Source: Oceanihabitans sp. 2_MG-2023
GTDB lineage: Bacteria; Bacteroidota; Bacteroidia; Flavobacteriales; Flavobacteriaceae
Direction of reading: 5' to 3'
Assembly (NCBI RefSeq): GCF_030547245.1
Contig: NZ_JAUOQT010000005.1
Span: 124,001-188,000 of the forward strand
DNA: 64,000 nucleotides
A model generated the notes under the pieces. It did not search any database and was not told the DNA's origin. It was given only the letters and a program-made list of their open reading frames with translations. The translations under genes were made by a program, and so were the position numbers. Positions 5,614 to 45,079 of this stretch are shown here, one piece after another. Numbering within the stretch: position 1 is the first letter of the stretch; every line of letters starts with the position of its first letter.

Positions 5614-6903
5614 ATGAAAATGCATAAGATAACCGTTATTGGTTTAGGCTATGTTGGCTTGCCATTAGCTTCCGAATTTGCAAAAAAATATCCAGTAATA
5701 GGATTTGATATTAATACGCTTCGTGTAACAGAATTACAACAAGGAATAGATAAAACTTTAGAGGTCGAATCCGAAGAGTTACAAAAAGTGCTGGTAGACA
5801 CTAACACTACTCAAAAAGGGCTGTATATAACCAATACGCCAGAAGACTTAGCAGCTTCTAATGTGTTTATTATCACTGTTCCTACACCAACAGATAGTTT
5901 AAATAAACCCGTTTTTACTCCTTTAATAAAAGCCAGTGAAACGGTTGCGAAAGTTTTAAAAAAAGGCGATATCGTTATTTATGAATCTACAGTTTACCCT
6001 GGTGTTACCGAAGATATTTGTGTCCCTATTTTAGAGGAGCAATCTGGATTAAAATTTAATACAGATTTTTTTGCTGGTTATTCGCCAGAACGAATTAACC
6101 CTGGAGATAAAAAACATACCGTAACCAAAATATTAAAAGTTACTTCTGGTTCTACACCAGAAATAGCAACTGTTATAGACGATTTGTATAAGTCAATTAT
6201 AACGGCGGGAACACACAAAGCTTCATCAATAAAAGTTGCTGAAGCTGCAAAAGTTATAGAAAACTCACAACGCGATATTAATATTGCTTTTGTAAATGAA
6301 TTATCTAAAATTTTTAGAATATTAGATATAGATACTAAAGCAGTTTTAGAAGCTGCAGGAACCAAATGGAACTTCATTAATTTTACGCCAGGATTAGTTG
6401 GAGGGCACTGTATAGGAGTAGATCCGTATTACTTAGCTCAAAAAGCAATAGAGTCTGGTTACAACCCTGAAATTATTTTAGCAGGACGTAAAATGAATGA
6501 TAGCATGGGAAGCTATGTAGCGCAAGAAACGGTAAAGTTAATGATTAATAAAGGTGCTACCATTAAAGGTGCTAAAGCATTGGTTTTAGGAATTACCTTT
6601 AAAGAAAATTGTCCAGACATTAGAAACTCTAGAGTAATAGACATTATTAAAGAATTAGAAACCTATCACGTAGATGTAGATGTTTTTGATCCTTGGGCTT
6701 CTTCAGAAGAAGTAAAGCATGAATACGGTTTTGATTTATTATGTTCTAAAACTGAAATAAGCGATAATTATGATGCTATTATTTTAGCAGTAAGTCATAA
6801 CGAATTTCTTAAAATAGATATCGAAAAATTAAAATCGCCTATAGGTGTTATTTTTGATGTGAAGTCCTTATTACCTAAGGAAATGGTAAATGGTAGGCTT
6901 TAA
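5614..6903 (+). CDS. UDP-N-acetylhexosamine C6 dehydrogenase (WbpO/TviB type)
   Basis: A 429-residue UDP-sugar dehydrogenase that oxidises C6 of a UDP-sugar to the uronic acid with two NAD+. The N-terminal Rossmann motif GLGYVGLP is at residues 10-17 and the family's catalytic Cys lies in GGHCIGVDP (Cys266). The segment EVESEEL and the overall length fit the TviB/WbpO branch that acts on UDP-GlcNAc or UDP-GalNAc, rather than UDP-glucose dehydrogenase. The next gene is a UDP-HexNAc C4 epimerase and no C2 epimerase (WecB) is visible, so UDP-GalNAcA is the most likely product, not ManNAcA. Starts 36 bases after the Wzc-like gene. Substrate is inferred. Confidence 0.88.
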   Translation: MKMHKITVIGLGYVGLPLASEFAKKYPVIGFDINTLRVTELQQGIDKTLEVESEELQKVLVDTNTTQKGLYITNTPEDLAASNVFIITVPTPTDSLNKPVFTPLIKASETVAKVLKKGDIVIYESTVYPGVTEDICVPILEEQSGLKFNTDFFAGYSPERINPGDKKHTVTKILKVTSGSTPEIATVIDDLYKSIITAGTHKASSIKVAEAAKVIENSQRDINIAFVNELSKIFRILDIDTKAVLEAAGTKWNFINFTPGLVGGHCIGVDPYYLAQKAIESGYNPEIILAGRKMNDSMGSYVAQETVKLMINKGATIKGAKALVLGITFKENCPDIRNSRVIDIIKELETYHVDVDVFDPWASSEEVKHEYGFDLLCSKTEISDNYDAIILAVSHNEFLKIDIEKLKSPIGVIFDVKSLLPKEMVNGRL

Positions 6904-6961
6904 CGTTTTTTAGATGCCGCGTTTCGAAAATCAAAGTACAGCAAACAAAAGTTATAATATT

Positions 6962-7050: not shown

Positions 7051-7066
7051 TATAAATTTAAAAATT

Positions 7067-8047
7067 ATGTATACAAAACCATATCACAAACAAGATTTAG
7101 CTAATTTCAGTTTTCTAGTAACAGGAGGAGCAGGCTTTATAGGCTCTAACCTTGTTGAATATTTGTTGAAGTTTGGAGCAAAAAAAGTTCGAGTACTGGA
7201 TAATTTTTCTAATGGATATAGAGAAAATTTAAGTGAATTTGAAGATAATCCTGCTTTCGAATTACTAGAAGGGGATATTCGAGATTTAGAAACCTGTAAA
7301 AAGGCGATGTTGAATATAGACTATGTTTCGCATCAAGCTGCATTAGGTTCTGTACCGCGTTCTATAAACGACCCAGTAACAACCAACGCTGTTAATATTA
7401 GTGGGTTTTTAAACATGCTTATCGCTGTAAAAGAAAGCAAAACCGTTAAGCGAATGGTGTATGCAGCATCTAGTTCTACCTATGGAGATAGTAAAGCATT
7501 ACCAAAAGTAGAAGAAAATATTGGCAGTCCACTATCACCTTATGCGGTAACTAAGTACGTTAATGAGCTGTATGCTGATGTTTTTGGTAAAACCTATAAT
7601 ACCGATGTTATTGGTTTTCGCTATTTTAATATTTTCGGACCAAAACAAAGTCCAAATGGCGCTTATGCAGCAGTAATACCATTATTTATGCAAGCACTTA
7701 AAGATAATAAAGCACCAAATATTCATGGCGATGGCGAACAAACCAGAGATTTTACTTTTGTAGATAATGCAGTACAAGCCAATGTAAAAGGGATGTTTGC
7801 TTCAAAGGAAGCAGCTAATCAGGTATTTAATATTGCTTGTGGCGATCGTATAAGTGTTAATTACTTATGGAATTCTCTAAACCAAGCAGCAAATAAGAAA
7901 CTAAAAGCGATACATGGACCTACACGTCAAGGCGATGTTAGAGATTCTTTAGCAGATATTTCTAAAGCTGAAAAATTCTTGGGGTATGCACCGCAATTTA
8001 CTGTTGGTGAAGGGTTGAGAATTACTTGGGATGCTTTTAATAAATAG
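7067..8047 (+). CDS. UDP-N-acetylglucosamine C4 epimerase (WbpP/TviC type)
   Basis: A 326-residue extended SDR enzyme. NAD-binding GGAGFIGS is at residues 20-27, the Ser-Ser-Ser-Thr segment near 135-138, and the catalytic pair Tyr159/Lys163 in SPYAVTKY. The stretch FGPKQSPNGAYAAVIP is highly typical of WbpP and TviC, which interconvert UDP-GlcNAc(A) and UDP-GalNAc(A). It also starts with the characteristic 14-residue extension before the Rossmann fold. With the preceding dehydrogenase it would supply UDP-GalNAcA for the glycan. The palindromic repeat separates the two genes, but both read the same way. Confidence 0.88.
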   Translation: MYTKPYHKQDLANFSFLVTGGAGFIGSNLVEYLLKFGAKKVRVLDNFSNGYRENLSEFEDNPAFELLEGDIRDLETCKKAMLNIDYVSHQAALGSVPRSINDPVTTNAVNISGFLNMLIAVKESKTVKRMVYAASSSTYGDSKALPKVEENIGSPLSPYAVTKYVNELYADVFGKTYNTDVIGFRYFNIFGPKQSPNGAYAAVIPLFMQALKDNKAPNIHGDGEQTRDFTFVDNAVQANVKGMFASKEAANQVFNIACGDRISVNYLWNSLNQAANKKLKAIHGPTRQGDVRDSLADISKAEKFLGYAPQFTVGEGLRITWDAFNK

Positions 8048-12247: not shown

Positions 12248-12249
12248 TT

Positions 12250-12340
12250 AGTGAATAGTGAATAGTGAATAGTGAAAATGGGAGAAGTGAAAAGTGAAAA
12301 GTGATTAGTAGTTTCACACCTCACAATTTGCAACTCACAA
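12250..12340. repeat. Heptad repeat tract between wzm and wzt
   Basis: Four tandem AGTGAAW units (12250-12277), a short break, then three more (12286-12306). The right part (about 12312-12340) reads on the minus strand as heptads of the TTGTGAG type, with CTCACAA at 12320 and 12334, 14 bases apart. The tract occupies nearly the whole 105-base gap. Confidence 0.8.
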
Positions 12341-12352
12341 AAATAATAAAGA

Positions 12353-13615: not shown

Positions 13616-14262
13616 AAAAAATAATAAATAAAAACGAAGCTAAGGTTTTTTGTATAGGATTTAATAAAACAGGAACCACATCTTTAGAAGCTGTTTTAAA
13701 AGGTTTTGGTTATAATATTGGTGACCAAACTATAGGAGAAACTTTAATAAAAAGTTGGTATCATAGAGATTTTAAAGATATTATCAAACTATCAAAAACA
13801 GCTACAGCTTTTCAAGACGTACCTTACTCTCTACCTTATACCTACCTGTTTTTAGATAGGTATTTTAAAAACGCAAAATTTATATTAACAGAAAGAGATA
13901 GTGCAGAACAATGGTATAAATCGATTGTTAAATACCATTCCAAATTATGGTCAAACGGTGTTAAAGCACCAACAACAGAGCAATTAAAAAATGGAAACTA
14001 TAGATATAAGGGGTTTGCTTACGATTATATGCGATTTGTATATGGTGAAATTGTAGAAACCAACCCTTATCATAAAGAAACTTTAATAGAAGCCTATACA
14101 AACCATAACCAAAGTGTAAAAGCCTATTTTGAAAGTCGTCCAGAAAAATTATTAACCATAAATATTTCTAATGCTTCAGATTATGGTAAATTATGTGCGT
14201 TTTTAAATAAACCGCAAAGTAGAGAAGATTTTCCATGGGAGAATAAAACAACCATTTTATGA
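13603..14262 (+). CDS. Sulfotransferase family protein
   Basis: A 219-residue protein with the 5'-phosphosulfate-binding loop GFNKTGTTS at residues 19-27 and a later FILTERD segment (near residue 96) matching the 3'-phosphate-binding R/S region of PAPS-dependent sulfotransferases. It would transfer sulfate from PAPS to a sugar hydroxyl. The start overlaps wzt by 13 bases, and the stop overlaps the aminotransferase by 4, so translation is probably coupled. Marine bacteria often make sulfated polysaccharides. The acceptor is unknown. Confidence 0.78.
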   Translation: MEGLKKIINKNEAKVFCIGFNKTGTTSLEAVLKGFGYNIGDQTIGETLIKSWYHRDFKDIIKLSKTATAFQDVPYSLPYTYLFLDRYFKNAKFILTERDSAEQWYKSIVKYHSKLWSNGVKAPTTEQLKNGNYRYKGFAYDYMRFVYGEIVETNPYHKETLIEAYTNHNQSVKAYFESRPEKLLTINISNASDYGKLCAFLNKPQSREDFPWENKTTIL

Positions 14263-23603: not shown

Positions 23604-25448
23604 ATGTGTGGCTTTTTAGGAGAAATTTCTAGTACATTATTAGAGCCAACTGCATTTAAATCCTTGTTAGATTTAAGTAAACAACGAGGTCCAGATCAAC
23701 AAGGTCTCTGGAAAGATCAAATTTGCCAACTAGGTTTTAATCGTCTAGCAATACTGGATGTTTCAGAGGCTGGTAAACAACCAATATTAAGCCCTTCTGG
23801 ACGCTATGCTTTGGTTTTTAATGGGGAAATTTATAACTATAAGAAATTACAAGTAACATATAATATAAGCGCATCTAATTTACGTTCTTCTTCCGATACA
23901 GAAGTATTAGCACATATCTTAGATAAGGATTCTATTCCAGAAATAGCGAAACAACTTAATGGTATGTTTGCTATCTCTATTTGGGATACGGTTTTAAAAC
24001 AACTTACTTTAATTCGTGATTTTTCTGGTATAAAACCTTTGTATTATGGTATGAAGCAAGAGCAAATAATCTTTGCTTCGCAATTTGACCAAGTGTTTAA
24101 GCATTCCCTTTTTGCTAAAAAAGAATTGCGGCCAGATGCTATGAAAAGTTTTTTTGGTCTAGGTTATATGCATGCTCCAGATACCGTTTTTAAGGATATA
24201 TTTCAAGTAGAGCCAGGAGCGTTAGTAGTTTGGGATTTTAATTTAAAACAGATTGTAAATAAAGAATACTATTATAAATGGCAAGTAAAAGAAGAACTTT
24301 TAGATACAGCTTCTAAAACAAAAGAAGTCTTTAAGTCTAGTATGCATGAAGTGATTAAAGGGCAACTCCAAGCAGATGTGCCATTAGGTACTTTTTTAAG
24401 TTCTGGTTTTGATAGCTCCTTGATTTCGGCGTTTGCCAAAGAAGAAAACCCTTTAATTAAAGCTTTTACTTTTGGTGTAGATAGTCATGGAAAATATGAT
24501 GAACGTCAAGATGCGGAGGCTTATGCTGCTATATTAAATTTAAATCATGAAACAGCGACAGTACAAGAAGCAGATTTATTGGCTATTATAGATGCGCATT
24601 TTAAAGCAATGCCAGAACCTTTTGGAGATTATAGCTCCATACCAACCTATGTTATTTGTCAAAAAGCACGAAAATTTGCTACAGTGATGTTATCTGGAGA
24701 TGGCGGAGATGAACTTTTTTGGGGATATCCTCGTTTTAGAACATCTTTAAATCAAGCACATTGGTTTCAGTATCCGCTTTGGTCACGAAAAATAATACTA
24801 CCTATTTTAAGACGGTTAAAACAAAAACTGCCCTGGGGAGTACAAATGTTTCCGCGTTTTTCGGATTGGATATTAAATAAGCAAGTACATTTTAGTGACA
24901 TTCATCGTTTTATGCCAAAAACAAATTTTACAGATTCCGTTTATAAATCGTATCAGTATAATAGTTCTCTTAAAAAAGAAGAAGTTTTACAGTATCTTAA
25001 AAAGAACGAATTTCATGCACACATGCAACGTGTATTAAAAAAGGTAGATTTAGCCAGTATGTCGCATAGTTTAGAAGTGCGCGTTCCTTTTTTAGACAAA
25101 GAAATGATAGCATTTAGCAATCGTATAAAATCGGGCTTTACGATCGATCATGACGAAACTAAAATAATATTAAAAAGTAGTCTCTATGATTATATACCTA
25201 AAGAGATTGTTAATAAAGAGAAGAAAGGTTTTTCTGTTCCTATAGCGTCTTGGTTACATGAGGAGTTAAAAGAAGATTTTAAACATACTATTTTAGAAAG
25301 ACCATTTTATGGAGCAGAACATGTAGATTTAAAGTTTTTAAAAATAACGATAGCATCCTTTTTTAATAAAAATTCTTCAGTTGATGTTTGGGGATTATGG
25401 CACGTATATGCCTGGCAAAAATGGGCTATTCATCATGAATTGGTTTGA
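23604..25448 (+). CDS. asnB: Glutamine-hydrolysing asparagine synthase family protein
   Basis: A 614-residue two-domain amidotransferase. Cys2 (MCGFLGEIS) is the N-terminal nucleophile of the glutaminase domain, with RGPDQQG and FNGEIYNY following. The synthase domain has the ATP PP-loop SGFDSS at 267-272 and a second loop SGDGGDELFWGY. The enzyme makes an amide from a carboxylate, ATP and glutamine. In this setting, with a uronic-acid dehydrogenase, amidation of a sugar acid is more likely than free asparagine synthesis; WbpS of Pseudomonas O-antigen loci is a precedent. It opens a new plus-strand run of genes. Confidence 0.88.
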   Translation: MCGFLGEISSTLLEPTAFKSLLDLSKQRGPDQQGLWKDQICQLGFNRLAILDVSEAGKQPILSPSGRYALVFNGEIYNYKKLQVTYNISASNLRSSSDTEVLAHILDKDSIPEIAKQLNGMFAISIWDTVLKQLTLIRDFSGIKPLYYGMKQEQIIFASQFDQVFKHSLFAKKELRPDAMKSFFGLGYMHAPDTVFKDIFQVEPGALVVWDFNLKQIVNKEYYYKWQVKEELLDTASKTKEVFKSSMHEVIKGQLQADVPLGTFLSSGFDSSLISAFAKEENPLIKAFTFGVDSHGKYDERQDAEAYAAILNLNHETATVQEADLLAIIDAHFKAMPEPFGDYSSIPTYVICQKARKFATVMLSGDGGDELFWGYPRFRTSLNQAHWFQYPLWSRKIILPILRRLKQKLPWGVQMFPRFSDWILNKQVHFSDIHRFMPKTNFTDSVYKSYQYNSSLKKEEVLQYLKKNEFHAHMQRVLKKVDLASMSHSLEVRVPFLDKEMIAFSNRIKSGFTIDHDETKIILKSSLYDYIPKEIVNKEKKGFSVPIASWLHEELKEDFKHTILERPFYGAEHVDLKFLKITIASFFNKNSSVDVWGLWHVYAWQKWAIHHELV

Positions 25449-26462: not shown

Positions 26463-27542
26463 ATGTCCAAAAAAATCCATATACTTTATACCATTCCAAA
26501 TTTTGATACTGCAGGAAGTGGTAAAGTGGTTTACGATTTGGCCAATCATTTAGATAAAAAACGTTTTAAAGTTTCTATAGCATGTAATAATAATGGAGGG
26601 CTTTTTTTTAAAGAAGTGGAAGCTTTAGACTTACCAATTCATATTATCTTATTAACCAAACCTATAAGACCATATTATACATTAATTAGTCGCTTAAAAC
26701 CGTTTAGAAAATTTTTAAAGAAAGAAAAAATAGACCTAGTGCATTCTTGGAACTATACTAGTGATTGGACAGAGCCTTTAGCGTGTAAATTAGTAGGAGT
26801 CCCTTTTATATATACTAAAAAGGCAATGAGTTGGGGAAATAAGCACTGGAAAATTAGAAGTTATTTGAGTGCTTTTATTATTACTGTTAATACCCAAATG
26901 CAAGCTTTTTTTCCTAATAAAAAACAACAAGCGCTTATTCCTTTTGGCTTAGATACTTCTTATTACCATTTAGAAAAATTTAATGTTACCAAAAACACTT
27001 CCGTTTTTAAAATAATTACAGTTGCAAATTTGGTTGCCGTAAAAAATATTGAATTACTGCTTGAAGCAATGTATACCATTAAATATTTACCAATTCATTT
27101 AGATATTGTTGGAGATATGCAAAATGAGTATGTAAATAAACTGCAACATATTGTAAATGAATTGCAATTAGAAACACAGGTTTCTTTTTTAGGAAAGCAT
27201 TTAGATGTAAGACCTTTATTAGCACAAGCAGATGTATATGTAATACCAAGTAAAAAAGAAGGTATGCCTATGGCATTAGTGGAAGCAATGGCAATGCAAT
27301 TACCAGTTTTAGGGGCTAATATTCCTGGTATTTCCTATGTACTTCAAGAGTTTCCAGATTTATTATTTCCTTTATCTGATGCTACTCTTTTAGCAACTAA
27401 AATAGAATCGATATATAATTTACCAATACAACAACAACAAAAATTAGGATTACGTTTACGTAATTACTGTGTAAAACATTTTTCGATGGCCGCTTTTATT
27501 AAGCAACACGAAGACTTATATTTGAAAATCGTAAAGCAGTAA
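26463..27542 (+). CDS. Glycosyltransferase family 4
   Basis: A 359-residue GT-B enzyme. N-terminal IHILYTIPNFDTAGSGKVVYDL with a glycine-rich loop; donor motif KKEGMPMALVEAMAM (E-x7-E) near residue 265 followed by LPVLGANIPG. Clearly a retaining glycosyltransferase of the GT4 group. Six bases separate it from the asparagine-synthase-like gene. Confidence 0.85.
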   Translation: MSKKIHILYTIPNFDTAGSGKVVYDLANHLDKKRFKVSIACNNNGGLFFKEVEALDLPIHIILLTKPIRPYYTLISRLKPFRKFLKKEKIDLVHSWNYTSDWTEPLACKLVGVPFIYTKKAMSWGNKHWKIRSYLSAFIITVNTQMQAFFPNKKQQALIPFGLDTSYYHLEKFNVTKNTSVFKIITVANLVAVKNIELLLEAMYTIKYLPIHLDIVGDMQNEYVNKLQHIVNELQLETQVSFLGKHLDVRPLLAQADVYVIPSKKEGMPMALVEAMAMQLPVLGANIPGISYVLQEFPDLLFPLSDATLLATKIESIYNLPIQQQQKLGLRLRNYCVKHFSMAAFIKQHEDLYLKIVKQ

Positions 27543-27548: not shown

Positions 27549-28949
27549 ATGAAAATTACTACAGGTATTATTCCAATACAACAGCAGTTTGTAGGTACGC
27601 CTCAAGAATTAGACTATGAGGCTATTTGTGTATTTGTAGCAACTGGTTTTTTTTTAGATACAGATACCTACTATAAAGGGCTAAAAGTTTTAAAACCAGG
27701 AAGAAATTATTTGTTAGATGACGAAAAAACCAAAATACTTTCTGAAAAAGCCTATTTTAAATGGCATTACACTCCTAAAGAGCGTCCTTTAAAACAGATA
27801 GTAGCAGAATTTGCAGAAATTTTTGAAACTGTAATTAAAGAACAAACTGCAGGTAAAAAAGTTATTTTACCACTTTCGGGAGGATTAGATAGCAGAACTC
27901 AAGCTGTAGCTTTACAGCATTTAAATATTCCTGTACAATCTTATAGCTATGCTTTTACTGGCGGTCATGATGAAACAAAATATAGTAAGCGTATTGCCGA
28001 AGTTTGTGGTTTTTCATTTCAAGATTTTAAAGTTCCTAACGGCTATTTGTGGAATGTTATAGATGCTTTAGCTGAAATAAATAATTGTTATTCCGAGTTT
28101 ACGCATCCACGTCAAATGGCATTTAAAGAAGATTATGCTGCAATGGGAGATGTTTTTTCTTTAGGACATTGGGGAGATGTGCTTTTTGATGATATGGCAG
28201 TCCACGATAATATGAACACAGAAGAACAAGTAAGTGTTTTGTTAAAAAAGATAGTAAAAAAAGACGGATTACTTTTAGCCGAAAGTATATGGGAATCACA
28301 AGGCTTTGCAGGAGATTTTATTACTTATTTTAAACAACGTATTACCAATTTATTAGTGGCTATAAATATTCCAAATAGTGCAAATGCGCAAATTAGGGCA
28401 TTTAAAAGTTTGTATTGGGCACCTCGTTGGACAAGTGTGAATCTATCTGTTTTTCAATCTGAAAGACCAATAACACTTCCGTATTACGATGCACGTATTT
28501 GTAACTTCATTTGTAGTGTGCCTGAAAAATTTTTAGCAGGAAGACAAATTCAAATAGAATATATTAAACTTCGTTTACCAGCTTTAGCAAAAATAACTTG
28601 GCAAGCAAAACGTCCTTTTAATTTATATAATTACCAGTATAATAAAACCCCTTGGAATCTCCCATATCGAGTAATCAATAAATTACAACGTATAACCGCA
28701 GCTACACCTTATGTACAACGTAATTGGGAATTACAGTTTATTGGTATGCAAAATGATAAAGCATTACAAGGTTGGTTGTTTCAGGATTTTAAAGGAGAAG
28801 AATTTGTTAATCTAGATATTAGAAAACAATTTTATACATTGTTTAAAGAAACTGATGGGGTTTTTTATGCACATTCTGTAAGTATGTTATTAACGCTTGC
28901 TTTGTTTTTTAAACAGATACAACCAGTGCAAATACAACAAAAAGACTGA
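27549..28949 (+). CDS. Asparagine-synthase-like protein lacking the catalytic glutaminase Cys
   Basis: A 466-residue protein with an intact ATP PP-loop (LSGGLDSRT, SGGLDS at 110-115) and a synthase-type C-terminal half (LGHWGDVLFDD, LPYYDARI). The N-terminus is short, about 100 residues instead of about 200, and lacks the Met-Cys start of the glutaminase domain; KVLKPGRNYLL is the remnant of its last strands. It may use ammonia, or ammonia passed from another protein, or activate a carboxylate with ATP for another reaction such as amide-bond formation with an amine. It is the second asparagine-synthase homologue in the locus, 2.1 kb after the first. Confidence 0.75.
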   Translation: MKITTGIIPIQQQFVGTPQELDYEAICVFVATGFFLDTDTYYKGLKVLKPGRNYLLDDEKTKILSEKAYFKWHYTPKERPLKQIVAEFAEIFETVIKEQTAGKKVILPLSGGLDSRTQAVALQHLNIPVQSYSYAFTGGHDETKYSKRIAEVCGFSFQDFKVPNGYLWNVIDALAEINNCYSEFTHPRQMAFKEDYAAMGDVFSLGHWGDVLFDDMAVHDNMNTEEQVSVLLKKIVKKDGLLLAESIWESQGFAGDFITYFKQRITNLLVAINIPNSANAQIRAFKSLYWAPRWTSVNLSVFQSERPITLPYYDARICNFICSVPEKFLAGRQIQIEYIKLRLPALAKITWQAKRPFNLYNYQYNKTPWNLPYRVINKLQRITAATPYVQRNWELQFIGMQNDKALQGWLFQDFKGEEFVNLDIRKQFYTLFKETDGVFYAHSVSMLLTLALFFKQIQPVQIQQKD

Positions 28950-29007: not shown

Positions 29008-30186
29008 TTGAAAAAAGCATTAAAAATAGCTGTGTATTCTGGAGATATCCCATCTACCACTTTTATAGAAAGGCTAATTAATGGTTTATCTAATGAGGTT
29101 TGTGAAATTTACCTTTTTGGTTTCCGAAAACGAAAAGTGTCTTATAATAAAAACGTATCTGTTTTTGCATATCGTAATACTAGAATAAGGAAAGCCATTT
29201 TTCTTTTAAAATACAGTTTTTTGTTATTCTTTTTTAAATCTAAGGAAAAACAAAAACTAGATCTAATTCTAAAAAAACAATCTAAAAATCTGCTTCTAGA
29301 TAAAGTAAAAAGCTATCCAGTGTTATGGCATAAACCAGATGTTTTTCATTTACAATGGGCAAAAGGACTGGCAGATTGGGTTTGGGTTAAAGAGTTTGAC
29401 ATAAAACTAATATTAAGCTTACGAGGTGCACATATTAATTATTCGCCAATTGCCGATACAGCTTTAGCAGCAATGTATCGTGAAAATTTTCCCAAAGTAA
29501 ATGCTTTTCATGCCGTCTCTAAAGCTATAGGATTAGAAGCTGAAAAATATGGAGCAGCTAAAGAAAAAATACAAGTAGTCTATAGCGGATTGCCAGAAGT
29601 TACTGTAGCTATTAAAAATAAAAAACCAAACGCAGTCTTTCAAATTATTTCAGTAGGAAGAGCGCATTGGAAAAAAGGATATACCTATGCTTTAGATGCT
29701 TGTAAAATACTAAAAGATAATAATGTAAAGTTTCATTATACTATAATTGGAGGGGCCAAGGATGTAGAATACGCATATCAATTGCACGATCTCGACCTAC
29801 TAGACGTTGTCACTTTATTGGATAATGTAACCTATCCCAAAGTACAAAGCTTAATGCAAGATTCGGATTTGCTTTTATTACCAAGTGTAGAAGAAGGTAT
29901 CGCAAATGTAGTTTTAGAAGCAATGCAGCATAAAACCTTAGTACTAACCACTAACTGTGGAGGTATGGACGAAGTAATTGTAGATGGCGTAAACGGTTTT
30001 ATAGTACCTATTCGTGATTCCGAAGCAATTGCAAAAAAAATACAAGAGATACAAACTATAGACGAAGCGGAAAGAGAAGCCATTTGTAATAAAGCATTAG
30101 CTCATCTTGAAGAAAAACACCAAGAACAAAAAATGGTAAGCAGTATGCTAGCCTTATACCAAAGGATACAAAATAATGAAGCATAA
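29008..30186 (+). CDS. Glycosyltransferase family 4 (tandem copy 1)
   Basis: A 392-residue GT-B enzyme. LKIAVYSGDIPSTTFIERLI at the start; ISVGRAHWKKGYTYALDA in the linker region; VEEGIANVVLEAM for the E-x7-E donor site; NCGGMDEVI after it. Starts with TTG. It overlaps the next GT4 by 11 bases and shares with it the HWKKG and FHYTIIG segments, so the two likely arose by duplication. Confidence 0.83.
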   Translation: MKKALKIAVYSGDIPSTTFIERLINGLSNEVCEIYLFGFRKRKVSYNKNVSVFAYRNTRIRKAIFLLKYSFLLFFFKSKEKQKLDLILKKQSKNLLLDKVKSYPVLWHKPDVFHLQWAKGLADWVWVKEFDIKLILSLRGAHINYSPIADTALAAMYRENFPKVNAFHAVSKAIGLEAEKYGAAKEKIQVVYSGLPEVTVAIKNKKPNAVFQIISVGRAHWKKGYTYALDACKILKDNNVKFHYTIIGGAKDVEYAYQLHDLDLLDVVTLLDNVTYPKVQSLMQDSDLLLLPSVEEGIANVVLEAMQHKTLVLTTNCGGMDEVIVDGVNGFIVPIRDSEAIAKKIQEIQTIDEAEREAICNKALAHLEEKHQEQKMVSSMLALYQRIQNNEA

Positions 30187-31372
30187 AACAGAAAGCTTAA
30201 CCATTGGTATTGTATTATCTACAGTGCCTAAATATTCGGAAACCTTTTTTAGAAATAAGATAAAAGGGTTGCAAGATCGTGGTTTTCGTGTCATTCTGTT
30301 TGTAGATTATGTACATGTAGATGATGCAGATTTTTCATGTAAAGTAGTTACTGGAAATAATTTTAATGGAAGCATTTTTAAAACAGTATGGTATAGTATT
30401 TTGGCCTTAATAACTGCGTTTTGTATGCATCCAAAGAGAAGTTTTACTTTATATGCATTAAATAAAAAAGACGGAATGTCTTTAAAAAAAAATATTAGAA
30501 GCGTTATACTTAATCAGTTCTTACTTAAAGAACAAATAGATTGGTTGCATTTTGGGTTTGGTATGTTGGCTGTAACGAGAGAAAATGTAGCAGCAGCCAT
30601 GCGAGCAAAAATGGCAGTAAGTTTTAGAGGCTATGATTTGTATTTATCCCCTTTAAAGCATCCAGGTTGTTATGATGTGTTGTTTACTAAAGAAGTGCAA
30701 TATCATGTGTTGTCGCAAGAAATGAAACAAGCATTAGAAAGTCTAAAAATCCCATCCAATAAAATACAAGTAATTACACCAGCAATCGATACGCAATTTT
30801 TTAAATCAAATAGTCAGATTCAAAAACAGGACTGTATTCAATTTGCAACTGTTGCTCGTTTACACTGGAAAAAAGGACTAGAATATACCTTAGAAGCTTT
30901 AGCGCTTTTAAAAAAAGAAGGACTAAACTTTCATTACACCATTATTGGTGCGGGAAGTGAAAAGGAAAGACTTGTTTTTGCAGCTCATCAATTAGGAATT
31001 CTTGAAACGCTTAGCTTTACTGGTAAAATGCCACAAACGGAAGTGAAAAAACAATTAGAAAAAGCAAGCATATACATACAGTATAGTATTCAGGAAGGAT
31101 TTTGTAATGCGGTTTTAGAAGCACAAGCTCTAGGATTACTATGTGTGGTTTCTAATGCCGAAGGATTGGCCGAAAATGTTCTAGATGGTACAACAGGATG
31201 GGTAGTGCCAAAACGGAAGCCAGAGTTATTAGCTAGTAAATTGAAAAGTGTTATTAAGCTTGATGATATAGAAAAAACAACCATAAAAGAAAATGCTATT
31301 GCTAGAGTAAATAAGGAATTTGGATTAAAAAAACAACAGGAAGAATTTGTAGCTTTTTATACTTCGAACTAA
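30176..31372 (+). CDS. Glycosyltransferase family 4 (tandem copy 2)
   Basis: A 398-residue GT-B enzyme with a WcaL-like start (LTIGIVLSTVPKYSETFFRNKI), VARLHWKKGLEYTLEAL, FHYTIIGAGSEKERL and the donor motif IQEGFCNAVLEAQ (E-x7-E). Similar to the preceding gene in its C-terminal half but closer to the GT4 at 19686 in its N-terminus, so the acceptor domains differ. The 103 bases after it hold no hairpin terminator. Confidence 0.83.
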   Translation: MKHKTESLTIGIVLSTVPKYSETFFRNKIKGLQDRGFRVILFVDYVHVDDADFSCKVVTGNNFNGSIFKTVWYSILALITAFCMHPKRSFTLYALNKKDGMSLKKNIRSVILNQFLLKEQIDWLHFGFGMLAVTRENVAAAMRAKMAVSFRGYDLYLSPLKHPGCYDVLFTKEVQYHVLSQEMKQALESLKIPSNKIQVITPAIDTQFFKSNSQIQKQDCIQFATVARLHWKKGLEYTLEALALLKKEGLNFHYTIIGAGSEKERLVFAAHQLGILETLSFTGKMPQTEVKKQLEKASIYIQYSIQEGFCNAVLEAQALGLLCVVSNAEGLAENVLDGTTGWVVPKRKPELLASKLKSVIKLDDIEKTTIKENAIARVNKEFGLKKQQEEFVAFYTSN

Positions 31373-35493: not shown

Positions 35494-36819
35494 ATGTTAT
35501 TTTCATTTTTAAAATATTTACAACCAACGCATTATTTTCAGCTGTTTACAAAAACAAATGCTTCCGTATTTCCTGAGGTTAAAAGTTTACCAGAAAGTAT
35601 TTTAAAGCAATTAACAGTAGATAAAACCTACCAATCTAAAATAGCACAAGATTATGATTTATCCTGGCAAGCAGTGCAAAAAGGATATATTGGTAAAGCT
35701 CCAACCTATTCTAATTTTGATAAAATAGCATTACAAGATAATTATCATTTTGTTCGTAAGTATTTTAATAAAGCTTGGGTTTTCTATATTTTACTACTGC
35801 GAATATTTTCGTTTTATAACCCTCTTAAAGAAGTCCGCGCTTGGTTAAAAACAAGTAAAGTAAATAGAGTTGCAATTGGTAATAGTCCTATTCTTTATAC
35901 CGATTGGAACTCCTTTGATTCCATGTTAATTAAAGAAAACCCTAAAGTAAGCGTAGTTATACCAACCTTGAATCGTTACGAATATTTAAAGGATGTTTTA
36001 AAAGATTTAGAACAACAAGAATACACTAATTTTGAAGTGATTGTTGTAGATCAATCGGAACCCTTTAAAGCCGATTTTTATGCCGATTATACATTAGATA
36101 TAAACCTTGTAAAACAAGAAGAAAAAGCACTTTGGTTAGCCAGAAATACAGCAATTAAAAATGCTACAGGAACACTCATTGCTTTATCGGAAGATGATGT
36201 ACGTATAAAACCAGATTGGATTTCAAGTCATTTAAAATGTTTAGATTTTTTTAAAGCTGAAGTTTCTGCAGGAGTTTTTTACCCCGAAGGCAAACAAATT
36301 CCTAAAGAGAGAGCTTTTTTTGCAATAGCCTCACAATTTGCAACCGGAAATGCCATGCTATATAAAAGCGTTTTTGAAACGGTAGGCTTATTTGATAGGC
36401 AGTTTGAAAAACAACGTATGGGAGATGGTGAGTTTGGTATGCGAGTGTATTTACAAGATATAAAAAGTGTGTCTAATCCAATAGCATCTTGTATTGATGT
36501 AAAAGCAGGAACAGGAGGATTACGCGAAATGGGAAGTTGGGATGCCTTTAGACCTTCTAATTTTTTTGCACCAAGACCAATTCCAAGTGTATTGTATTTT
36601 TTTAGACGTTATTTTGGTGAAAAAGCATCTAGATTAGCCATGTTGCGTATGGTGCCATTATCTATTTTTCCGTATCAATTCAAAAAAAACAAACCCCTAT
36701 TATTATTGGGCGTTTTTTTAACCATATTAATTCTTCCAATTGTATTTTATCAAGTTTTTAAATCTTGGCGTTTGGCAAGTAAAAAAATAAAAGAAGGACC
36801 ATTAATTGAAACATTATAA
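35494..36819 (+). CDS. Glycosyltransferase family 2 with N-terminal extension and C-terminal membrane helix
   Basis: A 441-residue protein. The first 145 residues have no recognised domain. The GT-A domain begins at about 148 (VSVVIPTLNRYEYL), with FEVIVVDQSE, WLARNTAIKNA and ALSEDDVRI as the DXD-like site near residue 230. A hydrophobic segment at about 405-425 would anchor the C-terminus in the inner membrane. It shares one base with the next gene. The extension may bind the acceptor or another enzyme. Confidence 0.8.
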   Translation: MLFSFLKYLQPTHYFQLFTKTNASVFPEVKSLPESILKQLTVDKTYQSKIAQDYDLSWQAVQKGYIGKAPTYSNFDKIALQDNYHFVRKYFNKAWVFYILLLRIFSFYNPLKEVRAWLKTSKVNRVAIGNSPILYTDWNSFDSMLIKENPKVSVVIPTLNRYEYLKDVLKDLEQQEYTNFEVIVVDQSEPFKADFYADYTLDINLVKQEEKALWLARNTAIKNATGTLIALSEDDVRIKPDWISSHLKCLDFFKAEVSAGVFYPEGKQIPKERAFFAIASQFATGNAMLYKSVFETVGLFDRQFEKQRMGDGEFGMRVYLQDIKSVSNPIASCIDVKAGTGGLREMGSWDAFRPSNFFAPRPIPSVLYFFRRYFGEKASRLAMLRMVPLSIFPYQFKKNKPLLLLGVFLTILILPIVFYQVFKSWRLASKKIKEGPLIETL

Positions 36820-37922
36820 TGCCTTCAGAAAAAAAACATATACTAATTGTTACCTCCGAATTCCCTCCACAACCTGGCGGAATTGGTAATCATGCATTGC
36901 ATCTAGCAAGTTGTTTAAGTAAAGAGAATTATAGGGTTCAAGTTATTGCAGATCAGCGTTCTTTAACAGGAGAAGACGAAATGCTATTTGATACGATATT
37001 GCCTTTTACTGTTGTTCGAATTAAACGATCTAGATATCGCTATAAAATGTATATGCAACGTATTATTGCCACCAATAAAAGTTTTAAAAATGCATCACAT
37101 GTAATCGCAACAGGGAAGTTTTCGTTGTGGAATGTTGCTTTTATTAGTCTGTTTAAAAAACGAAAAACACTAGCTGTAATTCATGGTAGTGAGGTTAATT
37201 TTAAATCCTTTATATTAAAAAAATCCATTGATGCTTCTTTAAAAAAATTTGATAAAATAATTGCAGTATCCAAGTATACAAAAGGTTTAATTTCGTATCT
37301 CCATAAAGATGTTGTGGTCATACCTAATGGTATTCAACTAGAAAATTGGAATGTAGAAAACCTTCCTGAAATAGTTTTGCAAGGAAACCCAGTTTTTACT
37401 ACAGTTGGTAGAGTGAGTACTAGAAAAGGCCAATTGCAAGTAATTAAACAATTACCTATGCTTTTAAAAAAATATCCAACGTTGCATTATCATTGTGTTG
37501 GTATTCCTTCGGAAGCTTCCGATTTTAAGGAAAAAGCAAAAGCCTTAGAAGTAGAAAAACATATTACTTTTCATGGTAGTGTTAGCGATACTATTTTAAA
37601 ACAAGTACTTTTAAAAACCGATGTGTTTGTTATGTTAAGTACCGAAAGTAAAACAGGAGACGTTGAAGGCTTTGGTATTGCTATTTTAGAAGCAAATGCG
37701 TTGGGTATTCCAGCAATTGGATCCGTAAATTGTGGTATCGAAGACGCTATAAAACCTAATGTTTCTGGGATTTTAATAGATGGGAGCAATGCAGAGCAGT
37801 TTTTGCAAGCTATAGCTACAATATTAAATTCTAAAGCAAGTTTTTCTGCTGAAGCAAGAGAATGGGCAATACAACACGATTGGTCTAATGTTATACAACA
37901 ATATATAGCTCTATTAAGATGA
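36819..37922 (+). CDS. Glycosyltransferase family 4
   Basis: A 367-residue GT-B enzyme of the PimB/WbdB-like type: ILIVTSEFPPQPGGIGNHALHLA at the N-terminus, VAVIHGSEV-type sequence in the middle (LAVIHGSEVNF), TVGRVSTRKGQ, and donor motif VEGFGIAILEANALGIPAIG (E-x7-E). The classic PPQPGGIG loop makes this one of the clearest GT4 calls in the locus. It overlaps the following gene by 4 bases. Confidence 0.87.
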   Translation: MPSEKKHILIVTSEFPPQPGGIGNHALHLASCLSKENYRVQVIADQRSLTGEDEMLFDTILPFTVVRIKRSRYRYKMYMQRIIATNKSFKNASHVIATGKFSLWNVAFISLFKKRKTLAVIHGSEVNFKSFILKKSIDASLKKFDKIIAVSKYTKGLISYLHKDVVVIPNGIQLENWNVENLPEIVLQGNPVFTTVGRVSTRKGQLQVIKQLPMLLKKYPTLHYHCVGIPSEASDFKEKAKALEVEKHITFHGSVSDTILKQVLLKTDVFVMLSTESKTGDVEGFGIAILEANALGIPAIGSVNCGIEDAIKPNVSGILIDGSNAEQFLQAIATILNSKASFSAEAREWAIQHDWSNVIQQYIALLR

Positions 37923-39049
37923 AAACTCTAACTATTATTTCGCATACAGAGCATTATAAAAAACCGGATGGAACTATTGTTGGTTTAGGTTCTACAGTAA
38001 CAGAAATTAATAATTTAATTACAGTTTTTGATGCGGTAATACATGTTGCTATGCTACATCAAGTAGCTGCGCCACCAAGCGCCTTGCCATATACATCCAG
38101 TAAAATTTCATTCGAAGCATTACCAGCAGTAGGAGGACAAAAACTTGTCGATAAGCTGGCAATTATATCTTCAGCTCCCAAAACAATTCGTATAATAAAA
38201 AAAGCAATTAATAAAACCGATTGTTTTCAATTTAGAGCACCAACAGGAATAGGAGTATTTGTAATTCCGTATTTGATGCTTTTTAGTTCTAAAAAAGGCT
38301 GGTTTAAATATGCCGGAAACTGGAAGCAAGAACAAGCGCCATTAGCATATAGCTTTCAGCGTTGGTTATTAAAAAATCAAAAAAGAAAAGTTACCATAAA
38401 TGGAAGCTGGCCAAACCAACCCAAACAATGCCTCACTTTTGAAAATCCATGCTTAACGGAAGGGGAGGTTGCCCAAGGAAAAAGTATCATTTCAACTAAA
38501 GTATTTTCTCAAAAAGATATAACATTTTGTTTTGTAGGAAGACTAGAAAAAGAAAAAGGAGTTGGTTTGTTAATTGAAGCATTTAAAAAATTAACAAAAG
38601 AGGAAAAATTAAAAATTAATGCTATTCATATAGTTGGAGACGGAAAAGCAAAACAGAAATATATAGATAGCACCAAAAATAGTGGTTTGCCATTTGTATT
38701 TCATGGGTTTCTATCTCGTAAAGATGTGCATGAAATATATAAAACATCGCATGCTATAATATTGCCATCTGCATCCGAAGGGTTTCCAAAAGTGATTGCA
38801 GAAGCTATGAATTTTGGGTGCTTACCAATAGTATCTAACGTGTCCTCTATTGGGCATTATGTGAAATCGGAAATTAATGGGTTTTTATTGGATGCTATTA
38901 CCGAAGAGGCACTTGTTTTTGAAATACATAAGATATTACAATTAAGTCCTTCGGTATTTGTTAAAATGATCCAGATGCAAAGTGAAACACAAAAAAAGTT
39001 TACATATTCGTATTATAATCATAGAATTGTTAATCTGTTAAAGTATTGA
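37919..39049 (+). CDS. Glycosyltransferase family 4
   Basis: A 376-residue GT-B enzyme. The N-terminal acceptor domain is diverged (TLTIISHTEHYKKPDGTIVGLG), the C-terminal donor domain is standard: FCFVGRLEKEKGVGLLIEAF, and SASEGFPKVIAEAMNFG (E-x7-E) with CLPIVSNVSSIG. The 4-base overlap with the preceding gene suggests coupled translation. A 136-base gap follows. Confidence 0.82.
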   Translation: MKTLTIISHTEHYKKPDGTIVGLGSTVTEINNLITVFDAVIHVAMLHQVAAPPSALPYTSSKISFEALPAVGGQKLVDKLAIISSAPKTIRIIKKAINKTDCFQFRAPTGIGVFVIPYLMLFSSKKGWFKYAGNWKQEQAPLAYSFQRWLLKNQKRKVTINGSWPNQPKQCLTFENPCLTEGEVAQGKSIISTKVFSQKDITFCFVGRLEKEKGVGLLIEAFKKLTKEEKLKINAIHIVGDGKAKQKYIDSTKNSGLPFVFHGFLSRKDVHEIYKTSHAIILPSASEGFPKVIAEAMNFGCLPIVSNVSSIGHYVKSEINGFLLDAITEEALVFEIHKILQLSPSVFVKMIQMQSETQKKFTYSYYNHRIVNLLKY

Positions 39050-39185: not shown

Positions 39186-39992
39186 ATGATTTTAAAAAAA
39201 GTGTCTTGGTTCTTTAAACGACACCATTTTCTATATATAACACGCTTTAAGCTACTTTCAAAAAACGCAAGTCTTACAGGAATAGAGAATTGCTCCTATA
39301 ATCAATACAATCTAATAAAAGATATTCCTAATAGCTTTAAAGAAGTAAATACAATTGTTTTTAATGCTAAAAAGGCAACTACAGATTTTGAATTAGTAAA
39401 ACAATTAAGTATTTGGTTACAAAACAATATTAAAGGAGGCCCTGGACTGAGTGAACCATCGGACACAGCCTTACAAATTATGCTAGCAGGAAAAGGAGGT
39501 GTTTGTAGTGATATGGCTCAAATTTTTAATAATTTTTGTGTAGTTAACGATATTAAAGTTCGAGAATGGGGAACTACAAGAGCTCCTTTTAATAAAGAAT
39601 TTGGTGGGCATTCTTTTAATGAGATTTATAGTCGAGAATGGAATAAATGGATACTTATAGATGTATATAATAGCTTGTTGTTTTATAATCTGGAGAAAAA
39701 ACCTTTGTCTGTAATAGAACTCTTTCAATTAATACGAACAAATAAGGAAGTTAAATTTGAAACTTTTAATCCTTTAAAACCAATAGAATTAGCGAGTGTA
39801 AAAAGAAATTATTTAGAAACTAACACGATTCCTTTTTTAATTTGTAATTATTCTAATAAAACCTATGATACTTATTTAAGGTTTTTTCGACCATACCTTC
39901 CGGTTTTTATTATCCACTTTATATTATTTCTTTTTCGAAAAAGTTACCATTATCGCTTTCCTATAGATAATTATAAGAAAATGTTTTCTTGA
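39186..39992 (+). CDS. Transglutaminase-like superfamily protein
   Basis: A 268-residue protein with a papain/transglutaminase-like triad: Cys107 in GGVCSDMAQ, His142 in GGHSFNE and Asp159 in LIDVYN. Members are amidases, proteases or acyl-transfer enzymes. No signal peptide is seen; the first 20 residues are basic and a hydrophobic patch occurs near the C-terminus (LPVFIIHFILFLF), which may anchor it. It lies between glycosyltransferases and the polymerase-like gene. Its place in glycan biosynthesis is unclear; amide chemistry linked to the two asparagine-synthase homologues is one idea. Confidence 0.7.
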   Translation: MILKKVSWFFKRHHFLYITRFKLLSKNASLTGIENCSYNQYNLIKDIPNSFKEVNTIVFNAKKATTDFELVKQLSIWLQNNIKGGPGLSEPSDTALQIMLAGKGGVCSDMAQIFNNFCVVNDIKVREWGTTRAPFNKEFGGHSFNEIYSREWNKWILIDVYNSLLFYNLEKKPLSVIELFQLIRTNKEVKFETFNPLKPIELASVKRNYLETNTIPFLICNYSNKTYDTYLRFFRPYLPVFIIHFILFLFRKSYHYRFPIDNYKKMFS

Positions 39993-40077: not shown

Positions 40078-41430
40078 TTGAAGACTAATATTACATATGT
40101 TTCTGTTATTGTAATGCATATATTCATTGGAATAATAATATATTTAAATGAGTCTTTGGCAAAGCTATATTTCTTTATGGCTTTATTTTATTTTTTGCAT
40201 CAAATAATTACAGCTCCTAATCATTTAAAAACTTTTGAAATTCTTAAAGCTTGTGCTTATTTCGTTGGAGCTGAGATTTTATTGCGTATGACAAAGGGTT
40301 CCATTTCTTATGAAGCTGGAAAATACCTCGTTATTGTACTCATGATTATGGGGATGTTTTATAAAGGTTTATCTGGAAAAGGGTACCCCTATTTTATATA
40401 TTTAATGTTTTTAGTACCATCTATATTTGTTGCTTCTACCACTTTGAGTTTTGATGCGAATTTTAGAACTAATATTGCCTTTGTGTTGAGTGGTCCTGTA
40501 TGTTTAGGGATTGCTGCGCTTTATTGTTATGATAAGAAAGTAAATATAAGACAGCTTCATAAAATATTATTATTTATGGTATTGCCTATAATTGCGAATA
40601 CGGCATATATTTTTGTTTATAATCCAAGTGTTAGAGACGTTTTGTCAGGCACAGGTTCTAATCGTTCGGCATCTGGAGGTTGGGGAGCAAACCAGGTTTC
40701 TACAATTTTGGGATTAGGTATGTTTATTATGGCAATTCGTTTATTTACAAAATCACCATCTTTAGGGTTGAAAATTTTGAATTTAGCAATTTTTTCCGCT
40801 ATTTCTTTTCGTGCAATTGTGACTTTTAGTCGTGGAGGAGTAATTACTGCCGTAATTGCTATATTAGCCTTTTTAGGAATGTATTATCTAAAAGTATCTA
40901 AAAAAAGGAAAAGTGAAATTATAAAAATTAGTTTACTATTCTTGTTTACCATTGTAGCAACTTGGGTAATAAGTTCTTCACAAACCGATGGTTATGTAGA
41001 CTTGAGATACGCAAATAAAGATCATTTAGGACGTGAAAAAAGTGATGTAACAACAGGTCGAGGACAGTTGTTTGAAGAAGAATTAGCTGGTTTTTTATCG
41101 AATCCATTTTTTGGTATTGGTTCTAGTAGAGCAAAAGACCAACGTATTGAAATTGATGGACAAGGGGTTACCTCGCATAGTGAAACTAGTAGATTGCTGG
41201 CAGAGCATGGTATGTTTGGTGTTATCATTTTACTAATACTACTATTTAAGCCTCTAGAGTTTCGATCAAGGAATAAAAAAAGTTATTTTTTCTATGCCTT
41301 TTTATGTTTTTGGTTTGCAACGATTAATCATTCTTCTATGCGAATTGCTGCACCAGCTTTTATTTATGCACTAGCTTTATTAAATGTGACTTATGAAAAA
41401 AATCCTTTACATAGGAAACAACTTAAATAA
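40078..41430 (+). CDS. O-antigen ligase/polymerase family membrane protein (Wzy/WaaL type)
   Basis: A 450-residue protein with about eleven membrane helices and a large loop around residues 300-375 (SSQTDGYVDLRYANKDHLG..., FFGIGSSRAKDQ, SHSETSRLLAEHG). The RGQLFEEELAGFLSNPFFGIG and H-S-E segments fit the Wzy_C/O-antigen ligase family. It would either polymerise repeat units or join finished glycan to lipid A; sequence alone does not separate these. TTG start at 40078. Its 3' end overlaps the next gene by 38 bases. Confidence 0.82.
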   Translation: MKTNITYVSVIVMHIFIGIIIYLNESLAKLYFFMALFYFLHQIITAPNHLKTFEILKACAYFVGAEILLRMTKGSISYEAGKYLVIVLMIMGMFYKGLSGKGYPYFIYLMFLVPSIFVASTTLSFDANFRTNIAFVLSGPVCLGIAALYCYDKKVNIRQLHKILLFMVLPIIANTAYIFVYNPSVRDVLSGTGSNRSASGGWGANQVSTILGLGMFIMAIRLFTKSPSLGLKILNLAIFSAISFRAIVTFSRGGVITAVIAILAFLGMYYLKVSKKRKSEIIKISLLFLFTIVATWVISSSQTDGYVDLRYANKDHLGREKSDVTTGRGQLFEEELAGFLSNPFFGIGSSRAKDQRIEIDGQGVTSHSETSRLLAEHGMFGVIILLILLFKPLEFRSRNKKSYFFYAFLCFWFATINHSSMRIAAPAFIYALALLNVTYEKNPLHRKQLK

Positions 41431-42458: not shown

Positions 42459-43853
42459 ATGGCAAAAAAAAAAGACATCCATTTTGATATTTCTGAAAGA
42501 AAAATACTACTACGTATTTTTGATCTTGTCTTTATTTTTGTTTCTCTTTATGGTGTAGGTCATTTTTTTGAATTTGATTATTTTTATATTGATAATAATA
42601 ATTGGGCTTGGATTATAATATTAGCCTTGTATATCAGCGTTTTTGGAACAGTATTCGAATTATACGATCTACAAAAAGCAAGTAAGCCAGATTCTGTACT
42701 TGCTAATATTGTATTAACCGTATCTGTTACCGTTTTATTTTATTTGTTAACGCCTTATTTTACTCCTTTTTTACCAGAGAATAGGTTGCAGATTTTTTAT
42801 TTTTATTTAGCCATTACTTTAGCTTTAGTTGTTTGGCGGTTAGCATATATTAATTTTATTACCTCTCCAAGATTTTATAAAAAAGCCCTCATTGTTGGTG
42901 AGGTTTCTAATATTCAACCAATAATAGATGCTTTTAAGGGTTCGGATCCTAATTATAAAATAGTTGGATTTATTAATTGTGAAGATAGAAACTATGATGC
43001 CATTAAGATTAATGGTATTGAAGAATTTCAGCCAAATCAAATGCATGCAATTATAGCTAAAGAAAATATTTCAGAAATTGTAGTAGCTAGTTATAACTCG
43101 GAAACTATAACTTCAGACATATATCACGATTTAATAACGCTTCTAGAAAGAGGTTTTCCTATTAAAGAATACACACAAGTATACGAAGACATGACGTATC
43201 GAGTACCTGTTCAATTTGTAGGTAAAGATTTTTATAAATATTTTCCTTTTAGTCGAAGTAATCAAAATAAACTCTACCTATTCTTTCATCGTTTTTTTGA
43301 TATGTTTTTCTCTATTATAGGAATTTTAATAGGTGCAGTTATTCTGCCTTTTATTTTACTTGGAAATATAGTAGCTAATAGAGGCTCTTTATTTTACACA
43401 CAAGAGCGTGTAGGTAAAAATGGTAAAACCTTCAATATTATTAAGTTTCGTACCATGATAAAAAATGCAGAAACTAATGGCGCTGTTTGGGCTACTAAAA
43501 ATGATTCTAGAATAACTTTTTTTGGTAAGTTTTTACGGAAATCTAGGCTGGATGAGATACCGCAGTTTATAAATATTCTTAAAGGGGAAATGAGTCTAAT
43601 TGGCCCTAGACCCGAAAGACCTTATTTTGTAGAGGAGTTGTCGCAAGTCATTCCTTTTTACGAAACTAGACATATTGTTAAACCTGGACTTACTGGTTGG
43701 GCACAGGTAAAAGTTAGATATGGCTCTAGTGTGGATGATAGCTTACTAAAGCTGCAATATGACTTATATTATATAAAACACAGAAGTTTCTTTTTAGACG
43801 CAAATATTATTATTAAGACTTTGAGTACCATGATTTTTTTTAGAGGTCAGTAG
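42459..43853 (+). CDS. Polyprenyl-phosphate sugar phosphotransferase (WbaP/WcaJ type)
   Basis: A 464-residue polyprenyl glycosylphosphotransferase that starts glycan assembly by moving sugar-1-phosphate to undecaprenyl phosphate. Four N-terminal helices (about residues 15-125), a CoA-binding-like domain (about 140-265), another helix near 280, then the catalytic domain with KFRTMIKNAE, SRLDEIPQFINILKGEMSLIGPRPERPYF and PGLTGWAQVKVRYG. Last gene of the locus; it faces the DUF4105 gene across 58 bases without a clear terminator. The sugar is not known. Confidence 0.92.
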   Translation: MAKKKDIHFDISERKILLRIFDLVFIFVSLYGVGHFFEFDYFYIDNNNWAWIIILALYISVFGTVFELYDLQKASKPDSVLANIVLTVSVTVLFYLLTPYFTPFLPENRLQIFYFYLAITLALVVWRLAYINFITSPRFYKKALIVGEVSNIQPIIDAFKGSDPNYKIVGFINCEDRNYDAIKINGIEEFQPNQMHAIIAKENISEIVVASYNSETITSDIYHDLITLLERGFPIKEYTQVYEDMTYRVPVQFVGKDFYKYFPFSRSNQNKLYLFFHRFFDMFFSIIGILIGAVILPFILLGNIVANRGSLFYTQERVGKNGKTFNIIKFRTMIKNAETNGAVWATKNDSRITFFGKFLRKSRLDEIPQFINILKGEMSLIGPRPERPYFVEELSQVIPFYETRHIVKPGLTGWAQVKVRYGSSVDDSLLKLQYDLYYIKHRSFFLDANIIIKTLSTMIFFRGQ

Positions 43854-45072: not shown

Positions 45073-45079
45073 TACTAAA

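Follow-up and report, generated by a model that had tools for sequence, protein, structure and literature searches.

The gene at 27549-28949 of the window (the whole stretch of 64,000 nucleotides of Oceanihabitans sp. 2_MG-2023 that was analysed) codes for an asparagine-synthetase-like protein that has no glutaminase domain. This protein would belong to a lineage of the asparagine-synthetase fold that is stably without glutaminase, and would carry out, as an N-type ATP pyrophosphatase, a fixed step of surface-polysaccharide synthesis. The reading favoured here, to which somewhat less than even confidence is attached, is that of an ATP-dependent carboxylate-amine ligase of a defined surface glycan, which would adenylate a carboxylate, use an amine that is not derived from glutamine and leave an amide in the glycan.

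The open reading frame and its fold

27549..28949, + strand: glutaminase-free asparagine-synthetase-like protein, 466 aa (Pfam, NCBIfam, AF2, fold search, hhalign)
27549..27788, + strand: N-terminal residues 1-80, the final strands of what was the glutaminase domain, with the linker, a small beta/helix element on the synthetase domain (AF2, fold alignment, hhalign)
23604..25448, + strand: complete AsnB-type amidotransferase (glutaminase and synthetase); accessory

An initial annotation had read the PP-loop of the target as intact and had placed a complete AsnB 2.1 kb upstream. Both observations hold: the motif SGGLDS occupies residues 110-115, with Arg116 after it, and Pfam assigns 116-120 bits to both GATase_6 and GATase_7 in the AsnB at 23604-25448. 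In the target, Pfam recognizes Asn_synthase alone (29.1 bits for a gathering score of 21, residues 93-176) and finds neither GATase_6 nor GATase_7. Residues 12-457 align with residues 163-613 of the complete AsnB, and the hhalign comparison of the target family with the AsnB alignment begins at AsnB residue 163 and extends to the C terminus (probability 99.3%). The gene is intact, not broken. Its ATG stands 6 bases past the stop of the preceding GT4 glycosyltransferase gene, and no hidden glutaminase was found upstream, in-frame stops lying immediately 5' of the open reading frame. The initial annotation had considered that a conserved Cys start might have been concealed upstream by a sequencing error; these stops speak against it, as do the lengths of the homologues. 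The family alignment comprises 93 of them, from two classes of Bacteroidota, all of 455-505 aa, and none of the 93 has a glutaminase domain or room for one. A frameshift or chance loss of the domain is ruled out by the stop-to-stop frames of homologues in whole genomes, which measure 459-485 aa.

The structure prediction that had been suggested as a check gave an AF2 model (pLDDT 95.8, pTM 0.93) in which the N terminus consists of the final part of the glutaminase domain and the linker. Strands were modelled at residues 2-4, 14-16, 45-47, 52-56 and 63-68; the element (residues 1 to about 75) packs on the synthetase domain with a pLDDT of 96-98, and the fold alignments of the target start at residues 115-137 of the PDB chains. 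Of the two states that had been allowed for, a missing glutaminase domain agrees with the absence of a GATase match and of room for one, and a domain cut down to a remnant does not agree with the N terminus, which is not a shrunken glutaminase. Over residues 1-461 the fold matches TsnB9 (Z 24.0), carbapenam synthetase (20.7, 1q19), human ASNS (19.9), beta-lactam synthetase (18.4, 1mbz) and AS-B (16.7), the next group being other PP-ATPases at Z 11.6 and below. The best PDB profile match is the carbapenam synthetase CarA (41.9 bits). The N-acetyl sugar amidotransferase 8wex, WbpG/PseA-like, was reached by Foldseek with E 1.7e-3 and TM 0.23 and is absent among the fold matches listed. The closest solved fold is that of the hydroxyamidotransferase TsnB9 (7ylz, 393 residues aligned), whose nitrogen source is glutamyl hydroxamate (PMC13418202); TsnB9 retains an N-terminal domain starting Met-Cys-Gly and reads SGGLDSS, whereas the target has no such domain and reads SGGLDSR.

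Pfam score and fold together place the target in the asparagine-synthetase-like N-type ATP pyrophosphatase superfamily (PF00733). Of the marks of asparagine synthetase B (TIGR01536), the PP-loop SGGxDS is kept in 93/93 family members, and the target lacks the N-terminal Cys with the Ntn glutaminase domain, Lys449 and Glu348, and a score at the cut-off: target residues 17-171 fall on TIGR01536 positions 172-324 with 43.7 bits for a cut-off of 267.1. Against TIGR03108 (eps_aminotran_1) the target scores 37.7 bits for a cut-off of 816.9. That the gene codes for an ordinary asparagine synthetase, or for a truncated, decaying copy of one, can hardly be right: the Pfam name suggests it, but the TIGR01536 score is far from the cut-off, the full length is conserved across two classes and the genome codes elsewhere (contig C30) for a housekeeping AS-B in which every catalytic motif is present. 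This AS-B also rules out housekeeping asparagine synthesis as the role of the target. Two more AsnB-type proteins (frames of 621 and 650 aa, about 6 kb apart) are encoded on contig C23 of the genome G000, at about 198-206 kb.

Extent and origin of the family

Among 60 relatives, full-length orthologues of the target were found in 12 genomes, that of the window and 11 others, the latter being 47-84% identical. When one genome per GTDB species was scanned with two short peptide patterns, 239 relatives were obtained, the best 80 of which are nearly all from Flavobacteriia, with one from Cyclobacteriaceae and one from a Saprospiraceae MAG. Typical Flavobacterium-like copies were also seen on MAG contigs labelled Erysipelotrichaceae and Patescibacteria (L045 and L051), labels that are probably binning errors. 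A search of a second Bacteroidota class yielded 9 further homologues, all in one taxonomic family.

The closest full-length relatives of the family are two proteins of 603-604 aa that lack the N-terminal Cys:

L119:1030-2841: Cys-less relative
L120:1027-2841: Cys-less relative

Their N-terminal domain is recognizable and degenerate, with no Cys at its start; the first 70 residues have no confident fold, and the remainder matches AS-B from residue 30 on. In two trees L119 and L120 are sister to all glutaminase-free members, the placement of the long-branched outgroups being uncertain. The glutaminase-free members form one group (support 99/96 and 91/88 in the two trees), and the Cys-containing AsnB clade is separate from it (support 100/99). 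More distant SGGxDSR proteins, one of them haloarchaeal (L142), are also without the Cys. Altogether, the asparagine-synthetase-related proteins of this kind (L119, L120, L121, L123, L125, L130 and L142:7515-9395) mostly read SGGxDSR and not SGGxDSS, start with MAG, MSG, MVG or MIA, come from Bacteroidota and a haloarchaeon, and apparently make up an unnamed glutaminase-dead clade. Like the target, the Cys-less SGGxDSR proteins (L119-L125, L130 and the haloarchaeal L142) have Arg past SGGxDS and no N-terminal Cys, but they keep a degenerate N-terminal domain that the target family has deleted. Because the closest full-length relatives retain such a Cys-less remnant, the simplest history is probably that the Cys was lost first and that a single deletion then removed the whole domain.

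The active site

27876..27893, + strand: PP-loop SGGLDS (residues 110-115), then invariant Arg116 (93-homologue alignment)
28161..28178, + strand: LGHWGD motif, residues 205-210 (alignments; H207 and D210 in 93/93)
28599..28619, + strand: W351-x-x-354-x-P-F, equivalent of AS-B W-R-Q-K449-E-Q-F (HMMER alignment to 1ct9)

Judged from the alignments, the acceptor side of the family is rebuilt and the ATP side is conserved. On the ATP side, S110, G111, G112, D114, S115, R116 and D210 are present in 93/93 homologues. On the acceptor side, the comparison rests on residues with roles assigned in AS-B and in beta-lactam synthetase, including the Tyr of beta-lactam and carbapenam synthetases; Glu348 and Lys449 of AS-B are catalytic in asparagine synthetase. 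An invariant His207 stands at the place of AS-B Glu348 and of carbapenam-synthetase Tyr345 ('TGYGSD' vs 'LGHWGD'), AS-B Glu352 has become Val211, so that the Glu of 'GD-E-LF' is gone, and the Tyr of 'FGGY' is not retained in the family. Where AS-B has W-R-Q-K449-E-Q-F the target reads W351-Q-A-354-R-P-F, and position 354, which corresponds to the catalytic Lys, is not conserved (Q in 38, H in 30, Y in 9, N in 6 and K in 4; n=93). The placement of this Lys differs between programs, hhalign putting K378 nearby and HMMER position 354; the HMMER placement was preferred because W351 and F357 match the AS-B motif. Residues R188, Q189, H207, R332, Y338, K378, N392, E394 and Q396 are invariant and specific to the family.

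The carbapenam and beta-lactam synthetases (1q15, 1jgt) resemble the target in the fold of the synthetase domain, in making no use of a glutaminase, in the loss of AS Glu352 and in the non-acidic residue at the position of Glu348. They keep, however, a complete inactive N-terminal domain, which in the target is deleted, and they work with Tyr and a catalytic Lys, whereas the target has His and no conserved Lys and sits in a polysaccharide cassette. Their Tyr-Glu dyad and Lys443 are accordingly not found in the target, with His at the Tyr position and a variable residue at that of Lys; CarA Glu380 is set by HMMER opposite V297, beside N298, in an alignment that is uncertain for this Glu.

These replacements bear on two other explanations. 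A catalytically dead fold, serving as a scaffold or regulator of a glycosyltransferase complex, is improbable; it would suit the three replaced AS catalytic positions and the constant company of the same glycosyltransferases (see below), but the PP-loop and Asp210 are invariant in 93/93 members over two classes, and the many new family-specific invariant residues suggest that an active site has been retained. Dead enzymes usually lose the nucleotide loop. The second explanation concerns the product. PesC, a nitrile synthetase of the asparagine-synthetase-like kind, binds the carboxylate through a Glu-Tyr dyad (PMC13060819); on our own reading this dyad would be equivalent to Glu352/Tyr357 and absent from the target. 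Since neither the catalytic Lys nor these PesC-type residues are conserved, the target may activate a group other than an ordinary carboxylate. The adenylated group might instead be a carbonyl, an amide or a hydroxyl, yielding a nitrile, an intra-sugar lactam or an ester, as in QueC, the nitrile synthetases and PesC. Weak matches to QueC profiles (18.5 bits for L022; 3bl5) and a structural match to the nitrile synthetase ArtA (Z 10.5) point in this direction, together with the absence of the carboxylate-binding Glu/Tyr and of the catalytic Lys. Such a non-amide product is nevertheless quite improbable, given that the whole-length fold is that of asparagine synthetase and not of QueC and that no thiol or carrier partner was seen.

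The glycosyltransferase cassette and the proposed reaction

Gene neighbourhoods were counted over 58 loci, each with 9 kb or more of flank on either side of the target homologue. The cassette members are the following:

26463..27542, + strand: GT4 glycosyltransferase, adjacent cassette member, 46/58 loci
29008..30186, + strand: GT4 glycosyltransferase, adjacent cassette member, 54/58 loci
30176..31372, + strand: GT4 glycosyltransferase, invariant cassette member, 58/58 loci
35494..36819, + strand: GT2-domain protein, invariant cassette member, 57/58 loci
36819..37922, + strand: GT4 glycosyltransferase, cassette member, 38/58 within the flank
37919..39049, + strand: GT4 glycosyltransferase, cassette member, 35/58 within the flank

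The GT4 genes of the 26463, 29008 and 30176 types and the GT2 gene of the 35494 type are all on the strand of the target across loci. Of the 60 relatives, 12 have both the target and the 30176-type GT4 and 47 have neither (Fisher p 9e-12; by genus 4e-7); a single draft genome has this GT4 without the target. In G014 the cassette has no match to the target, but there it is broken up among small contigs. In loci of the second class, the target homologue has a glycosyltransferase on one side and the 29008-type GT4 on the other, and the latter is followed by the 30176-type GT4. Such a distribution would be expected of a step that a single glycan pathway cannot do without. The cassette was not found to contain, as a constant member, a carrier protein, an amino-acid ligase or another source of amine.

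Several further genes accompany the locus. In the second class, the loci L159 and L160 add a DegT aminotransferase and, by the look of their sequences, PglD-like, WbqC-like and polysaccharide-deacetylase-like genes, which could possibly make a free amino sugar able to serve as amine acceptor. In the window, Wza/Wzc-type export genes and a Wzm/Wzt-type ABC exporter (2296-8047 and 11384-13615), a Wzy_C/ligase-like protein (40078-41430) and a WbaP/EpsB-type initiating transferase (42459-43853) suggest that two export routes coexist in one locus. Sulfotransferase-domain genes (13603-14262 in the window, L065:14086-14964; 16/58 related loci) suggest possible sulfation of the glycan. An Lnb-type lipoprotein N-acyltransferase homologue lies by a PorV2-type type IX sorting protein (43912-46189, - strand), immediately past the downstream end of the polysaccharide locus.

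Other genes of the window have been considered as partners of the target:

5614..6903, + strand: UDP-N-acetylglucosamine 6-dehydrogenase homologue, TviB-like, 543.8 bits (cut-off 592)
7067..8047, + strand: TviC-like UDP-GlcNAcA C4-epimerase homologue, best NCBIfam match, 324.7 bits (cut-off 760)
39186..39992, + strand: transglutaminase-core protein (PF01841, 30.8 bits)

The initial annotation had set the target beside the AsnB and a transglutaminase-like protein later in the locus. The latter was recovered, but between the 37919 and 40078 homologues of G014 it is absent, and no link to the target emerged. The AsnB occurs in 22 of the 58 loci, and it is therefore not an obligatory partner, the constant companions of the target being glycosyltransferases. 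As regards GATase_7, no such domain was found in 36/58 full-flank loci, and in the other 22 it lies only within a complete AsnB. Over 80 loci, GATase_7 matches occur in 28, those inspected having the size of complete or contig-truncated AsnB, and no separate GATase_7-type domain was found, class-I glutaminases being outside the models used. A two-subunit enzyme made of the target and the AsnB, or of the target and a stand-alone glutaminase of the GATase_7 type, was rejected on these counts.

The TviB-like protein is a possible source of uronic acid, and uronic acids are plausible substrates of the target in view of the TviB/TviC-like genes. Homologues of TviB and TviC, however, occur in 50/60 and 32/60 genomes, many of them without the target, and in G006, G023 and G033 the target and TviB are on different contigs. 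A UDP-uronate supply dedicated to the target was discarded for these reasons, and the two genes neither prove nor exclude a uronic-acid substrate.

Uronamide synthesis by full-length asparagine-synthetase-like enzymes is known from other polysaccharide loci. The full-length AsnB-like WbpS makes glucuronamide in the A-LPS of P. gingivalis (PMC7468200), and GalNAcAN is the product of a b-Cool-type locus that includes an asparagine synthase (PMC12407052). The uronamide synthases WbpS and WbqG (TIGR03108) share with the target an asparagine-synthetase-like character and a place in polysaccharide loci, but they are full-length and glutamine-hydrolysing, which the target is not; the AsnB at 23604-25448 is nearer to them and is probably an enzyme of the uronamide type. 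The target might itself follow WbpS/WbqG chemistry with free ammonia, or with ammonia from the neighbouring AsnB. In favour of this are these precedents, the TviB/TviC homologues in the window and the use of free ammonia by the asparagine-synthetase-like PesC (PMC13060819). Such an ammonia-dependent uronamide synthase is nonetheless unlikely, since the AsnB is found in 22/58 loci only, a Gln-dependent AsnB able to do the job is already present in the locus of the window, and the acceptor residues of ammonia-utilising asparagine synthetases (Glu348, Glu352 and Lys449) are all replaced.

Coupling of a carboxylate with another amine is favoured because of the ancestral amide chemistry of the fold, the absence of glutamine nitrogen within the polypeptide, the glycan cassette and the AS-B that covers asparagine; it is also favoured by the TviB-/TviC-like enzymes and the AsnB of the locus, as AsnB-types of comparable loci make uronamides. 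Within the target polypeptide, nitrogen cannot come directly from glutamine. In the proposed reaction, the PP-loop (SGGLDSR) and Asp210 would bind ATP-Mg, a carboxylate of a sugar or of a sugar substituent would be converted into an acyl-adenylate with release of PPi, and a nitrogen nucleophile not tunnelled from glutamine (an amino acid, an amino sugar or another amine) would attack this intermediate. The invariant His207 would perhaps act as a base, where beta-lactam and carbapenam synthetases use Tyr and AS-B has Glu348, and the product would be an amide-linked decoration or joint of the glycan. The initial annotation had likewise proposed that a sugar acid is joined to an amine in the manner of beta-lactam synthetase. 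The retained ATP/PPi half of the fold, the lack of a glutaminase and CarA as best profile match agree with this proposal, which is supported in part, and a uronic acid is a candidate substrate. More tentatively, the family may constitute a new enzyme class, glutaminase-free ligases of the asparagine-synthetase fold with a His-based acceptor site, which within a glycosyltransferase cassette would join glycan carboxylates to amines and give amino-acid-bearing or amide-linked surface glycans in Flavobacteriia and a second Bacteroidota class. The family was not found in the literature on AglU/threonine transferase, glutaminase-lacking enzymes and Flavobacterium asparagine synthase.

In all the members of the superfamily considered for comparison (asparagine, beta-lactam and carbapenam synthetases, and TsnB9), the N-terminal domain persists even if it is dead. 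A large and ancient clade in which the domain is deleted, the ATP side kept and the acceptor side rebuilt suggests a different nucleophile, nitrogen or other. Since one glycosyltransferase cassette has the gene as an obligatory member, its product would be a predictable feature of one glycan. The enzymes that make amino-acid-decorated or amide-bridged glycans are poorly known, and such glycans are relevant to surface attachment, phage receptors and serology.
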